The notes under the pieces: model-generated
What the model saw: only the letters and a program-made list of their open reading frames with translations
Told to the model about the DNA's origin: nothing
Databases searched by the model: none
Source of the DNA: Bacteroidota bacterium
Lineage (GTDB): Bacteria; Bacteroidota; Bacteroidia; NS11-12g; UBA955
DNA: 43,226 nucleotides
Direction: 5' to 3'
Assembly: GCA_024103355.1 (NCBI GenBank)
Contig: JAGFIU010000046.1
Coordinates: forward strand, 1 to 43,226
Shown here: piece by piece, positions 2,765 through 37,281 of the stretch
Numbering within the stretch: position 1 is the first letter of the stretch
Layout: each line of letters starts with the position of its first letter
Position numbers and translations under genes: made by a program

Positions 2765-4660
2765 TTATTTTACTTCTTCGTAGTCAACATCCTGAACATT
2801 GTTGGCACCGCCATTGTCATTGTTTGGCTGGTGGTTTTCAGGATTTGGATTATTTTGCTGTGCATTATACATATCTTGAGAAGCAGCTTCCCATGCTTTA
2901 TTTAAAGCCTCAGAAGCGGGGTCAAGAGCTGCAATATTCTTATCAGCATGTGCTTTTTTCAATTCAGCAAGTGCAGATTCAATAGTACCTTTCTTTTCGG
3001 CCGGAATCTTGTCTCCATACTCTTTAAGATTCTTTTCAGAAGTAAAGATAAGCGTGTCTGCAACATTGAGTTTATCAATTTCTTCTTTCGCTTTTTTGTC
3101 TGCTTCTGCATTTGCTTCAGCTTCTTTTTTCATACGCTCGATTTCCTCTTTGCTCAAACCTGATGACCCTTCAATGCGAATGTGTTGTTCTTTGTTGGTT
3201 CCTTTGTCGCGTGCGTGAACGTTTAGAATTCCGTTTGCATCAATATCAAATGTAACTTCGATTTGAGGCACACCTCTTGGAGATGGTGGTATTCCATCTA
3301 AAGTAAATCTGCCAATGCTCTTGTTATCACGTGCCATAGAGCGTTCACCTTGCAATACATGGATTTCTACTTGTGGCTGATTATCTGCTGCGGTAGAGAA
3401 TACTTCACTTTTCTTAGTTGGAATAGTAGTGTTGGCATCAATTAATTTGGTGAAAATGCCTCCCATTGTTTCAATTCCAAGTGAAAGAGGGGTTACGTCA
3501 AGAAGCAATACATCTTTCACATCACCGGCTAGCACTCCACCTTGAATTGCAGCACCGATAGCTACCACCTCATCAGGATTCACACCTTTTGATGGTGCTT
3601 TGCCAAAGAATTTCTCTACTGCTTGTTGAATTGCAGGGATACGAGTAGAACCTCCTACCAAAATCACTTCGTCAATATCAGCGGTTGTGTAACCTGCATT
3701 TTTGAGTGCTGATTTACAAGGTTCGATTGTTCTTTGAATCAAATCATCCACTAATTGCTCAAATTTAGCTCTTGTTAGATTTGTTACAAGGTGTTTTGCA
3801 ACTCCGTCAATGGCGGTGATATATGGAAGATTTATCTCAGTAGCAGCAGAGGATGATAACTCAATCTTGGCTTTCTCAGCGGCTTCTTTAAGACGTTGCA
3901 TAGCTGTTGGGTCTTTAGAGATGTCAATGCCAGGATTGTCTTTTTTAAATTCTTCAACTAACCAATCAATAATTCTGTGGTCAAAATCATCTCCTCCTAA
4001 GTGGGTATCTCCGTCAGTTGACTTTACTTCAAACACTCCATCGCCAAGCTCAAGAATAGACACGTCATGTGTACCTCCTCCGCAGTCAAACACTGCAATC
4101 TTCATGTCTTTATGTCTTTTATCTAATCCGTAAGAAAGAGCGGCAGCAGTAGGCTCGTTAATAATCCTGCGAACTTTTAATCCTGCAATTTCTCCTGCTT
4201 CTTTCGTAGCTTGTCTTTGAGCATCGTTAAAATATGCAGGTACGGTGATAACAGCTTCTGAAACAGTAGTTCCAAGGTAATCCTCTGCGGTCTTCTTCAT
4301 TTTTTGAAGAATGATTGCTGAAATTTCTTGAGCAGAATATTTTCTGTCTCCAATTTCAATACGAGGAGTGTTGTTTTCACCTTTTACAACTTTGTAAGGC
4401 ACCCTTGCAATCTCTTTACCTACTTGATCATAGGTATTACCCATAAATCTTTTAATGGAAAAAATGGTGTTTTGTGGGTTTGTGATAGCCTGACGTTTGG
4501 CAGGGTCACCCACTTTTCTCTCACCGTCTTTCAAAAATCCAATCACAGAAGGTGTGGTTCTTTTACCTTCTGAATTGGGGATTACAACGGGCTCGTTTCC
4601 TTCCATAACAGAAACACAAGAGTTTGTAGTTCCTAAGTCAATTCCAATTATTTTGCTCAT
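2765..4660 (-). CDS. dnaK: Chaperone DnaK (Hsp70)
   Basis: ATP-dependent cytoplasmic Hsp70 that binds unfolded segments of client proteins, normally with DnaJ and GrpE. It has 631 residues, full length. Visible signatures are the phosphate-1 loop GIDLGTTNS at residues 5-13, [11 protein letters not shown] near 147, [12 protein letters not shown] near 167, a phosphate-2 loop written [11 protein letters not shown] near 191 (Cys where many DnaKs have Leu), and the interdomain linker before [10 protein letters not shown] near 388. The C-terminus is the acidic DVDYEEVK type. The gene is monocistronic: neither dnaJ nor grpE adjoins it. The 131-base upstream gap has no CIRCE repeat; it carries four TCTGNCA-type elements and a sigma-54-like sequence, described separately. 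The ATG follows directly from homology. Confidence 0.98.
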
Positions 4661-4686
4661 TTGCTATTTGATTTTTCATCTGTTTC

Positions 4687-4701
4687 TCAACCATTATGCC
4701 A
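4687..4701 (-). promoter_or_regulatory. Sigma-54-like promoter candidate of dnaK
   Basis: Read on the minus strand, TGGCATAATGGTTGA fits the -24/-12 pattern TGGCAYR-N4-TTGCW, with A in place of the usual C after TTG. The G of TTG is 28 bases before the dnaK start codon, which would give an untranslated leader of about 16 bases. No TAnnTTTG box is seen at this distance. The same architecture precedes htpG. Sigma-54 use is an inference from the motif. Confidence 0.45.
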
Positions 4702-4704
4702 TCA

Positions 4705-4770
4705 AGTCAGAATAGACTTTTTGGCTGTCAGAAATGATGCTTACTTGTCAGAATGGCACATTTGGCAGAA
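4705..4770 (-). repeat. Four tandem TCTGNCA-type elements upstream of dnaK
   Basis: On the minus strand, reading towards dnaK, the elements are TTCTGCCA (core at 4763-4770), ATTCTGACA (4746-4754), TTTCTGACA (4726-4734) and ATTCTGACT (4705-4713). Spacings are about 17, 20 and 21 bases, so all lie on roughly the same face of the helix. All have the same orientation. Similar elements precede htpG at 35372-35443. They look like tandem sites for an activator or repressor; the protein is unknown. Confidence 0.6.
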
Positions 4771-4791
4771 AATTAAGACTTATTAAGCGAA

Positions 4792-5685
4792 TTATCGTGT
4801 CAGAACCGCATATACAAACCGAATCATGTTGGTAATAGGATTTCTGGTAAAGACTTTTTTGGTAATCGTGTCTTCTATTGATTGGGTAAGGGCAGGAGAG
4901 TGTAATAAAATATTGTGGTGATTTCTGAGCGGATGTGATTCAAGCAGAAACTTTTGGTCAGAAGCTTTGGTATGTGTAGAGTTGTCTCCAAAGCCAATGT
5001 TGACAACCAAATTGTCTGATGGAGAGACCGATTTAAGTCCTTGTACCCAATTCAAATATTGGTTTTGGAAATCCCAAGTGTCAATTTTGTTTTTATGTGT
5101 AAGCAGCAGGTTTCTGTACCAGAGTAGTTTGTTGTTGAGATTGCCCGGTACTAAATCGAAACGAAATTTGTAATCTTTCAAAGGAGTGGTGGTGTAATTG
5201 TCCCATACTCTTTTCCAAGTTGCCCAGCCCCAAATATGAGAATAACTGATTAGAATATGATTTTGTTGAATTTGCTTGTCAAACTCAACCAATGTGAAAC
5301 CTGACACATGTCCTACCGTCACATCCTTTTCATAGAGTTTTAGCATATTGGAGCAAAATACAAAGAAATCATCATTGGGCAGGCAATCATCTTCTAAAAT
5401 TATACCTTGTTCCGTGTGCTCAAAAAACCAAGTAATGGCAGAAGACACAGCGAGTTTGCATCCTAAATTCTGAGTGCGATAAAGGGTGTGCAGTTTACAT
5501 TCCCAGTCTATATTGAATATAGCTTTGACTTGTTCAACCGTTTTGGCTTCTTGTGTATTTCTGGGACCGTCAACAGCGACAAAGAGTTGAGCCGGTTTGG
5601 CTTTTTTGATTTGGTCAAAAACCCGTGTCGTCTGTGCAGGACGGTTAAATGCAATGAGTAGGACAGGAGCAATGTAGTCAGCCAT
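4792..5685 (-). CDS. HlpA-like glycosyltransferase-fold protein
   Basis: Predicted nucleotide-sugar transferase of the GT-A fold, of the kind often annotated as HlpA or hemolytic protein in Bacteroidota. The N-terminus PVLLIAFNRP with VFDQIKKAKPAQLFVAVDGPRN fits the nucleotide-binding half of a family 2-like transferase. ILEDDCLPNDDFF near residues 94-106 carries the acidic cluster expected for metal and donor binding, and SHIWGWATWKRVW is a conserved aromatic acceptor-side motif. It has 297 residues from the ATG at 5685; a TTG at 5715 would add ten residues unlike the family, so the ATG is preferred. No signal peptide is seen, so it should be cytoplasmic. It sits head to head with an FkbM methyltransferase gene, which suggests surface-glycan work. 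Donor and acceptor cannot be read from sequence. Confidence 0.75.
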   Translation of the reverse strand: MADYIAPVLLIAFNRPAQTTRVFDQIKKAKPAQLFVAVDGPRNTQEAKTVEQVKAIFNIDWECKLHTLYRTQNLGCKLAVSSAITWFFEHTEQGIILEDDCLPNDDFFVFCSNMLKLYEKDVTVGHVSGFTLVEFDKQIQQNHILISYSHIWGWATWKRVWDNYTTTPLKDYKFRFDLVPGNLNNKLLWYRNLLLTHKNKIDTWDFQNQYLNWVQGLKSVSPSDNLVVNIGFGDNSTHTKASDQKFLLESHPLRNHHNILLHSPALTQSIEDTITKKVFTRNPITNMIRFVYAVLTR

Positions 5686-5757
5686 AGCGGGCGTTTTAGG
5701 GGCGGCAAGATACAACTGATTTTTTACGATAGTGTTTATAGTATAAGAAATTTACTT

Positions 5758-5765
5758 TAACTTTG
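5758..5765 (+). promoter_or_regulatory. Predicted -7 box of the FkbM-T9SS operon
   Basis: TAACTTTG matches TAnnTTTG and lies 12 bases before the ATG at 5778, which implies a very short leader. It would drive the FkbM methyltransferase and the following surface-protein gene. Confidence 0.55.
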
Positions 5766-5777
5766 TAAAAGCAAATT

Positions 5778-6482
5778 ATGATGTTTAAGAATTTAAAAAA
5801 GAAGTTGTTACGAATCTTGCCGATTCACTACTATAAGATTAAAAGATGGTATTCTCAAGAGGGAGAGGATGCCATAATTCAAACATATTTTGAAGATATA
5901 GGAATGAAAAGAAAAGGATTTTATGTAGATATTGGTGCACATCATCCCATCAGGTTTTCAAATACTCATTTGTTGTATAAAAGCGGTTGGAAAGGGTTAA
6001 ACTTTGAACCTAATGTATCAAGCGGTAGGGCGTTTAAACTCTTCCGAAGAAGAGATAAAACAGTCCACATAGGAATTGGAAATGAAGAGTGTGAAAAAGA
6101 CTTTTATGTGTTTGATGAACCAGCGATTAATAGTTTTGACAAAGCTGTTTCAGAAGACCGGGATAAAGAAAGTCCTTACAAACTTATAAAAGTTATAAAA
6201 ATACCCATAATGAGATTGGAAACGGCACTTGACAAATATTTGCCCAAGAATCAGAAAATTGATTTAATGTCCATAGATGTTGAGGGATTGGATTTAGAGG
6301 TAATGAAAAGCAATAATTGGGAGAAGTATAAACCCAATATGTTGTTGGTGGAAGATTTGGATTTTGACTTTGAAAATCTGCAATCATCAGAGGTTTGGAA
6401 TTTCCTTAAAAAGCAGGATTACAAGATTTATGCAAAAACCCACAGGACATTAGTGTTTGTGAGTAATAAAATCGAAAAATAA
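5778..6482 (+). CDS. FkbM family methyltransferase
   Basis: Predicted SAM-dependent O-methyltransferase, commonly acting on sugars of surface glycans in this family. It has 234 residues. The core shows the family pattern: SQEGEDAIIQTYF near residue 27, the SAM-binding loop GFYVDIGAHHPIRFSNTHLL near residues 47-66, GWKGLNFEPN with the acidic SAM-ribose contact near 70-79, and DLMSIDVEGLDLEVM near 160, which is the hallmark IDVEG motif. There is no signal peptide, so it acts in the cytoplasm. An ATG immediately follows the chosen one and either could be used. Only seven bases separate its stop from the large T9SS gene downstream, so the two are probably one transcript. Family is confident; the methylated substrate is unknown. 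Confidence 0.88.
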   Translation: MMFKNLKKKLLRILPIHYYKIKRWYSQEGEDAIIQTYFEDIGMKRKGFYVDIGAHHPIRFSNTHLLYKSGWKGLNFEPNVSSGRAFKLFRRRDKTVHIGIGNEECEKDFYVFDEPAINSFDKAVSEDRDKESPYKLIKVIKIPIMRLETALDKYLPKNQKIDLMSIDVEGLDLEVMKSNNWEKYKPNMLLVEDLDFDFENLQSSEVWNFLKKQDYKIYAKTHRTLVFVSNKIEK

Positions 6483-35371: not shown

Positions 35372-35443
35372 TGTCTGACATATCTTCATTTATTGTCTGT
35401 CAATTTTTCATAAATCTTGTCGGGCATTTTATTTGTCAGGTCA
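35372..35443 (+). repeat. Four tandem TGTCTGACA-type elements upstream of htpG
   Basis: The elements are TGTCTGACA (35372-35380), TGTCTGTCA (35394-35402), TGTCGGGCA (35418-35426) and TGTCAGGTCA (35434-35443), at spacings of 22, 24 and 16 bases. The first two match the TCTGNCA core exactly; the last two are looser. All face htpG, as the dnaK elements face dnaK. They probably bind the same regulator. Confidence 0.55.
35422..35436 (+). promoter_or_regulatory. Sigma-54-like promoter candidate of htpG
   Basis: GGGCATTTTATTTGT fits GGCA-N6-TTG of a -24/-12 promoter, with T in place of the usual C after TTG. The G of TTG is 29 bases before the htpG ATG, almost the same as at dnaK (28). It overlaps the third and fourth array elements. 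No TAnnTTTG box lies at this distance. Sigma-54 use is inferred from the motif. Confidence 0.4.
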
Positions 35444-35463: not shown

Positions 35464-37281
35464 ATGAGTAAAATGAAAAGCAGAAAGATTTCAGTTCATA
35501 CTGAAAATATTTTTCCTATTATCAAAAAGTTCCTTTATACCGACCACGAAGTATTTTTAAGAGAACTTATTTCAAACGCTGTTGATGCCACACAAAAACT
35601 AAAAGCCTTGTCCTCAATAGGTGAATATAAAGGAGAGTTGGGTGATTTAACTATTGAAGTAAAGCTTGATAAAGAGGCAAAAACACTCTCTATTATTGAC
35701 AAGGGTATCGGTTTAACTCAAGAAGAAATCGAAAAGTATATCAACCAACTTGCTTTTTCCGGTGCTGAAGAGTTTTTGCAACAATACAAGGATAAAACTG
35801 ACACCGCAGTGATTGGACATTTTGGACTCGGGTTTTATTCTGCGTTTATGGTTGCTAATAAGGTTGAAATTTATTCATTATCAAGAAGCGATGACGCAAA
35901 ACCTGCATATTGGGTTTGCGAAGGAAATACTGATATAAAAATGGGAGAGGGGACTAAGGCAGAAAGGGGTACGGAAATTATATTGCATTTGAACGATGAC
36001 AGTCTTGAGTTTAATGACTCCTTCAGAATCAAAAATATCCTTGACAAATATTGTCGCTTCTTGCCCGTAAAAATCAAGTTTGAAGATAAAATTATCAATG
36101 AAAAAGAACCGATTTGGACAAAGAAACCACAAGAATTAAAAGAAGATGATTATCAAGATTTATATAAAACACTATACCCTTTTGAACCGGAGTCTCTTTT
36201 TCATATTCACCTAAACGTTGATTACCCCTTTAATCTTACCGGGATATTGTATTTTCCCAAAATCAGCAACCGTTTTGAGCCTGAAAGACATAAGGTTCAG
36301 TTATACAGTAATCAGGTTTTTGTTACCGATAATGTGAAAGACATTTTACCTGATTATTTGGTATTATTACAAGGTATCATAGACTCACCGGATATTCCAT
36401 TGAATGTTTCTCGAAGTGCTTTGCAAAGCGATGGTAATGTTAAGAAAATCACCAGTTACATATCCAAGAAGGTTGCGGATAAGTTGACTGAATTGTTTAA
36501 AAACGATAGAAAGGATTTTGAAACAAAATGGGAAAACCTTGGATTATTTGTAAAATATGGTATGGTGAGTGATGAAAAGTTTTATGATAAAGCCAAAGAC
36601 TTCTGTTTATTGAAGGATGTTGACAGTAATTTTATGACCATTGAAGAGTTCGAGAATAAAGCAAAAGAAATACAGACTAACAAAGACAAAAAGACGGTAT
36701 TGTTGTATTCAACAGACAGCAAAGAGCAGGCTTTGTATGTTAAGCAAGCAAAAGACAATGGTTATATAGTAATTGAGTTGGATGGTCCGGTTGATTCTTA
36801 TTTTATAGGTAAATTGGAAGAAAAGAATGAAAATTTGGTTTGCCGAAGAGTTGATTCTGATACTTTGGATAAATTAGTGGACAAAGGAGTTAATATTGAA
36901 TCTGTTTGTAGCAAAGAAGACGAGGAAAAACTCAAAGAACTTTTTACATCCCAAGCAGAAACAGGTTTTGAGGTAGAAACAACCCCCATGAGTGCGAGTG
37001 AATCACCTGTGGTAATAACAGAAGGGGAGTTTGATCGCAGATTTAGAGAGATGTATGCAAATCAGTCAGCAATGTTTGGTACTGCAGCAATGGGTACTCA
37101 ATACAAAGTTAAAGTGAATGTGAATCATCCTGTAATGAAAAATATTCTGGGCTCGAATGATGAAATTAAAAAAGATTTGGTTGGGCAATTGTTGGATTTG
37201 GCTTTGCTCAGCAAAAATCTTCTTAAAGGTGAAAAAATGGCAAACTTTGTCAATAGAAGCATTGAGTTGATGAATAAATAA
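35464..37281 (+). CDS. htpG: Chaperone HtpG (Hsp90)
   Basis: Bacterial Hsp90, a dimeric ATP-dependent cytoplasmic chaperone. It has 605 residues, slightly shorter than the E. coli protein. The ATP-binding motifs are LRELISNAVDATQKL near residue 34, IIDKGIGLTQEEI near 78, and GHFGLGFYSAFMV near 119. The middle domain has the catalytic-loop Arg in IDSPDIPLNVSRSALQ near 310-325. The C-terminal dimerisation part is short. It stands alone, and its upstream region resembles that of dnaK, with an element array and a sigma-54-like sequence, so both are probably in one stress regulon. Confidence 0.97.
   Translation: MSKMKSRKISVHTENIFPIIKKFLYTDHEVFLRELISNAVDATQKLKALSSIGEYKGELGDLTIEVKLDKEAKTLSIIDKGIGLTQEEIEKYINQLAFSGAEEFLQQYKDKTDTAVIGHFGLGFYSAFMVANKVEIYSLSRSDDAKPAYWVCEGNTDIKMGEGTKAERGTEIILHLNDDSLEFNDSFRIKNILDKYCRFLPVKIKFEDKIINEKEPIWTKKPQELKEDDYQDLYKTLYPFEPESLFHIHLNVDYPFNLTGILYFPKISNRFEPERHKVQLYSNQVFVTDNVKDILPDYLVLLQGIIDSPDIPLNVSRSALQSDGNVKKITSYISKKVADKLTELFKNDRKDFETKWENLGLFVKYGMVSDEKFYDKAKDFCLLKDVDSNFMTIEEFENKAKEIQTNKDKKTVLLYSTDSKEQALYVKQAKDNGYIVIELDGPVDSYFIGKLEEKNENLVCRRVDSDTLDKLVDKGVNIESVCSKEDEEKLKELFTSQAETGFEVETTPMSASESPVVITEGEFDRRFREMYANQSAMFGTAAMGTQYKVKVNVNHPVMKNILGSNDEIKKDLVGQLLDLALLSKNLLKGEKMANFVNRSIELMNK

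Follow-up and report, generated by a model that had tools for sequence, protein, structure and literature searches.

The dnaK gene of this Bacteroidota bacterium is probably transcribed from a sigma-54 promoter, with TGNCA half-sites upstream of it acting as the enhancer of a bacterial enhancer-binding protein, most likely the one designated EBP2, within a regulon of chaperone and protease genes. The gene lies in a contiguous stretch of 43,226 nucleotides, hereafter the window. On the minus strand, TTCTGCCA begins at position 4770, TTCTGACA at 4753 and again at 4733, and TTCTGACT at 4712, placing the TCTG starts at 4769, 4752, 4732 and 4711 and giving spacings of 17, 20 and 21 bases. The first three copies read TCTGMCA and the last TCTGACT, so that the four tandem elements described before dnaK in the initial annotation of this DNA are indeed present. 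They are followed by the promoter-like sequence TGGCATAATGGTTGA, whose TTG is separated by 27 bases from the dnaK ATG at 4660; it has the GG and GC/GA dinucleotides expected at -24/-12 of a sigma-54 promoter, at the fixed spacing (TGGYAY-N5-TTG). A TGNCA-N3-TGNCA dyad at 4758-4746, TGCCATTCTGACA, had been absent from the earlier list. The coordinates of these features, and of their counterparts at htpG, are collected in Table 1.

Table 1. Positions of chaperone genes and their predicted upstream control elements in the window.
Feature	Position	Strand	Basis or remark
dnaK, 631 aa	2765..4660	-	ORF list; PF00012, 869 bits, full length
Predicted sigma-54 -24/-12 promoter TGGCATAATGGTTGA	4687..4701	-	sequence; shared by 88/90 non-redundant dnaK upstream regions
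Degenerate upstream element TCTGACT	4705..4711	-	8 bases from -24 TGGCA
Upstream element TCTGACA	4726..4732	-	sequence
Dyad TGCCA-TTC-TGACA (TGNCA-N3-TGNCA)	4746..4758	-	includes the second element of the initial annotation
Upstream element TCTGCCA	4763..4769	-	sequence
Additional exact TCTGACA	4798..4804	-	within 3' end of upstream ORF
htpG, second chaperone gene of the window	35464..37281	+	upstream region of the same kind
TCTGACA before htpG	35374..35380	+	
CTGTCA before htpG	35398..35403	+	
Sigma-54-like GGGCATTTTATTTGT before htpG	35422..35436	+	TTG 28 bases from ATG

When the 131-base intergenic region was shuffled 20,000 times with its dinucleotide composition preserved, neither three copies of TCTGMCA nor four of TTCTGMC ever arose, which bears out the earlier judgment that the repeats are unlikely to be due to chance; the promoter pattern TGGYAY-N5-TTG appeared in 0.25% of these shuffles. 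Across the whole genome, a pair of TCTGMCA copies within 30 bases occurs at dnaK and at two sites inside genes, and nowhere else. The exact TCTGNCA tandem was rejected as a genome-wide marker of a regulon, the other paired copies falling in coding sequence. The repeats of the TCTGNCA core proposed initially are real, and its exact spelling is local; the core conserved in relatives is TGNCA with an outer C, in either orientation.

From -300 to +20 of dnaK there is no match to CIRCE, to the TAnnTTTG box, to the sigma-70 pattern TTGACA-N-TATAAT or to RpoH-type patterns, in keeping with the initial observation that CIRCE and TAnnTTTG are both missing here; a TAnnTTTG box shown to drive dnaK had been named as evidence that would count against sigma-54 control, and no such box was found. 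CIRCE (TTAGCACTC-N9-GAGTGCTAA) is also absent from 90 dnaK upstream regions and from 81 other regions. Transcription from the predicted sigma-54 promoter would start near position 4675, leaving a leader of about 15 bases. An RNA thermometer was considered and rejected: positions 4500-5000 have no Rfam match, and a leader as short as the one predicted, at about 15 bases, also speaks against it.

Conservation of the promoter was assessed with the upstream regions of dnaK from 29 relatives and 80 named Bacteroidia records together with that of the window. A usable sigma-54-like site, in a looser form, was the entry condition for this set and was found at 109 of the 110 loci, so that the condition cost a single locus; removal of near-duplicates then left 90 regions. 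The stricter TGGYAY-N5-TTG is present in 88 of these 90 non-redundant regions, where 0.44 would be expected, and its median distance from the ATG is 52 bases. Not one of 119 control upstream regions from the same loci contains the pattern. These counts support the sigma-54-type promoter proposed initially and agree with a sigma-54 transcription start mapped at dnaK in Flavobacterium psychrophilum, another member of the class (PMC9723704). That housekeeping sigma-A instead drives dnaK, with the sigma-54-like hexamers there by coincidence, is very improbable: the Bacteroidota sigma-A promoter, TTG-N17-23-TAnnTTTG, is absent at the dnaK gene of the window and occurs in 2 of the 90 dnaK upstream regions, which is the level expected by chance, and both the 88 sigma-54 matches and the mapped start speak against it. 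The observation in its favor is that no RpoN gene was found in the assembly of the window.

That absence is likely to reflect an assembly gap, to judge from synteny. A search of the assembly, which is rated 100% complete, with the RpoN profile PF04552 gave no match, and no pieces of rpoN were found among the contig ends taken from this genome, whereas the profile matched in 35 of the 38 genomes searched, a sister genome included. In the sister, rpoN lies at 61 kb on contig C2. Contigs from the genome of the window align with C2 as far as about 38 kb, and the matches resume at about 102 kb; no contig end falls in the intervening part, and it is from this pattern that a gap seems the likely explanation.

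The sister genome was not used as a phylogenetic footprint of the dnaK promoter, because its identity to the window forms part of a recombined block. All 110 bases before dnaK are the same in the two genomes, and the identity of 99-100% reaches back at least 1.5 kb upstream and runs on to roughly base 225 of the dnaK gene, after which it falls to about 79%. The block, at least 1.7 kb long (4436-6160 in the window), comprises a glycosyltransferase-like ORF, the dnaK promoter and the first 75 or so codons of dnaK; judged by this alignment, it is a product of recent homologous recombination with a breakpoint inside dnaK. Within it, a segment of 32 bases (4771-4802) is only 72% identical to the sister.

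Upstream of the dnaK promoters, TGNCA is enriched five-fold (256 occurrences vs 48.5 expected) and CTGNCA is found 107 times vs 11 expected, whereas symmetric control words (CA.TG, GT.AC, TC.GA and others) remain below two-fold. The distances between half-sites peak at 8, 12, 20, 32 and 45 bases, and most half-sites are placed 20-80 bases farther upstream than the -24 element. The dyad, which corresponds to the spacing of 8, is present in only 18 of the 90 regions; elsewhere the half-sites are loosely arranged. By these comparisons, the TGNCA pattern at dnaK is class-wide in Bacteroidia. The initial annotation had held that a lack of conservation in relatives would refute it; the core is conserved, and the comparative data support its proposal of upstream regulator sites distinct from the HrcA/CIRCE and RpoH systems.

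OmpR-type regulators read direct repeats, and most of the elements at dnaK in the window are laid out in this manner. The TGNCA elements might accordingly be the sites of a repressor or modulator, for example the OmpR-type RprY, superimposed on the sigma-54 promoter. In Porphyromonas gingivalis, a member of the class without CIRCE, RprY binds to the promoters of groES, clpB and dnaK, apparently as a repressor (PMC3646045). The same study gives no RprY motif and finds htpG unbound, yet an element lies upstream of htpG here, and the half-sites are concentrated upstream of the -24 element, as activator sites are, rather than over the promoter. We therefore regard a repressor or modulator of this kind as unlikely, and favor an enhancer recognized by a sigma-54 activator.

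Half-sites also accompany other chaperone genes. A comparison of chaperone upstream regions from relatives, of the sort suggested in the initial annotation, finds them at dnaK, groES, grpE-dnaJ and htpG, and weakly at clpB. When the 200 bases before each gene were counted in relatives, with the -24 TGGCA included where the promoter has one, there were 75 half-sites at groES (10.6 expected), 49 at grpE-dnaJ (7.7 expected) and 53 at htpG (11.1 expected), with weak enrichment at clpB (30 vs 13.1 expected). The strict TGGYAY-N5-TTG is mostly not matched at groES, clpB and grpE within the order, where a weight matrix instead reveals gene-specific sigma-54-like variants that members of the order share, such as TTGGCAA followed by TTTGA before grpE; the -12 elements of groES in the order are mostly degenerate. 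The dyad recurs at flavobacterial groES, grpE and htpG. In the genome of the window it has 22 copies, vs 8 for a reversed control pattern; 15 of the 22 were examined, and three are intergenic. Two of the three belong to dnaK and grpE, where a sigma-54-like site follows the dyad at 54 and 22 bases, respectively. At grpE, TGTCATAATGTCA stands 22 bases before TTGGCAATAACTTTGATA. Upstream of htpG in the window the order is TCTGACA, CTGTCA and GGGCATTTTATTTGT, and lon in the same genome has the promoter-like site TGGCATATAGATTGA. Additional TGGCAY-N5-TTG sites in this genome precede genes for a thioredoxin-like protein, a secreted protein and a lipoprotein, and these are possibly further sigma-54 targets.

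The genome of the window encodes two genuine PF00158 sigma-54 activators, designated EBP1 and EBP2. EBP2 (422 aa) consists of an AAA+ domain (PF00158 at 16-182, 222 bits), a lid, a variable linker of about 100 residues and a Fis-type helix-turn-helix (HTH; PF02954 at 380-419, 51.8 bits), and has no sensor domain. Its loop reads GSFTGA, a sequence listed among the activity-preserving variants of GAFTGA (PMC4641369), and its orthologues carry GAFTGA, GSFTGA or GAYTGA. EBP2 was detected in all 55 genomes of the class that were sampled, with an identity of at least 54%, and the recognition-helix segment LGISERTLYRK is invariant in the orthologues examined. The gene is flanked by miaB and lptE, with secG and groES-groEL commonly coming next, and it is found beside groES-groEL in 10 relatives and in five of six further genomes of the class. 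The order miaB, EBP2, lptE, (a hypothetical gene), secG, groES and groEL is kept across several Bacteroidia lineages.

One genome, G151, which is 100% complete and free of contamination, encodes EBP2 as its sole PF00158 protein and also has a match to rpoN. Its dnaK upstream region contains TCGGCACGGTGATTGA with half-sites, and its htpG upstream region contains TGACAAACTGACA and TTGGTACGGGGATTGT; these sites are fewer and weaker than those of relatives. If the sigma-54 promoters of G151 work, EBP2 is the only candidate activator found there.

EBP1, encoded on contig C27, is an NtrX-like response regulator with a receiver (REC), AAA+ and HTH architecture. The genome has no other genuine sigma-54 activator besides EBP2, and EBP1 has orthologues in nearly all relatives of the order, so that it might be the protein that acts at the sigma-54 promoter in place of EBP2, and its receiver domain would supply a signal input. 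This assignment has a low probability, slightly above that of a repressor or modulator at the half-sites. EBP1 is missing from G151, which retains the promoter and half-sites, and its loop reads GAFTTA instead of GAFTGA in the genome of the window. In the EBP1-like protein of about 390 aa from a flavobacterium, which ends before any HTH, the loop reads GAFTSA; some loop variants of this kind can remain active (PMC4641369). The flavobacterial gene is situated about 2 kb from dnaJ.

With EBP2 as the most likely reader of the half-sites, a mechanism can be proposed in which dnaK is transcribed from the predicted sigma-54 promoter at 4701-4687 and the TGNCA half-sites form a putative enhancer for a protein that remodels the sigma-54 polymerase. 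EBP2, for which TGNCA binding is our inference, would bind CTGNCA half-sites in dimeric form, with several of these sites about two helical turns apart, and its assembly there would activate dnaK. Similar elements at groES, grpE-dnaJ, htpG and lon would extend this control to a chaperone and protease regulon. Because EBP2 has no sensor domain, its activity would presumably depend on a partner protein, much as PspA restrains PspF, or on the variable linker. The signal may be protein-folding stress, and heat induction of dnaK is suggested by the function of the gene alone.

A close functional parallel is PspF, the phage-shock activator of E. coli, which likewise combines an AAA+ domain with a Fis-type HTH and has no N-terminal sensor; its sites, like those proposed for EBP2, lie upstream of a sigma-54 promoter. 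EBP2 differs in having about 100 extra residues between the AAA+ lid and the HTH and in being linked to cytoplasmic chaperones. Against the PspF model (NCBIfam TIGR02974) it scores 264.8 bits, through the AAA+ part only and under the curated cut-off of 443.55; EBP2 would work like PspF and is not a member of its family. In other phyla, these chaperone genes are regulated through HrcA/CIRCE and RpoH, whereas the dnaK of the window has neither CIRCE nor an RpoH-type promoter.

The sigma-54 promoter of dnaK is of a known kind. Sigma-54 starts have been mapped at dnaK, groESL, grpE-dnaJ, htpG, lon and clpB in F. psychrophilum, where the sigma-54 (SM4) chaperone regulon has -24/-12 promoters like those predicted here (PMC9723704); sigma-54 control of chaperones is thus already published for the phylum, and the promoter is not new. 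The main text of that study leaves the upstream elements unnamed and does not specify which of three activators serves the chaperones. Regulons computed in 2025 likewise place Bacteroidota chaperones under sigma-54, yet in the portion available to us they rely on promoter matrices only and do not assign the activator or its site (PMC12316311). In a literature search that mostly covered sources other than subscription journals, we found no published description of the TGNCA upstream element or of its activator. We therefore consider, with moderate confidence and from comparative sequence data, that the class-wide TGNCA element and its assignment to EBP2 constitute the new part.

It is tempting to extend this to the whole of Bacteroidia, although we hold the extension more tentatively than the account of dnaK itself, at somewhat under even odds: instead of answering to HrcA or to a heat-shock sigma factor, the cytoplasmic chaperone response of the class might be run by a universal, sensor-less EBP2. 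This protein would recognize TGNCA half-sites and dyads ahead of sigma-54 promoters, and a partner, perhaps the chaperones themselves, would in turn control it. Bacteroidota dominate in the gut and are common in soil and sea, and the literature we found assigns them no chaperone activator. With a class-wide element and a near-universal candidate activator, the question of chaperone control becomes testable by deletion of a single gene. If the proposal is true, the known means by which bacteria control heat-shock genes would gain a further one, driven by an activator and dependent on ATP.
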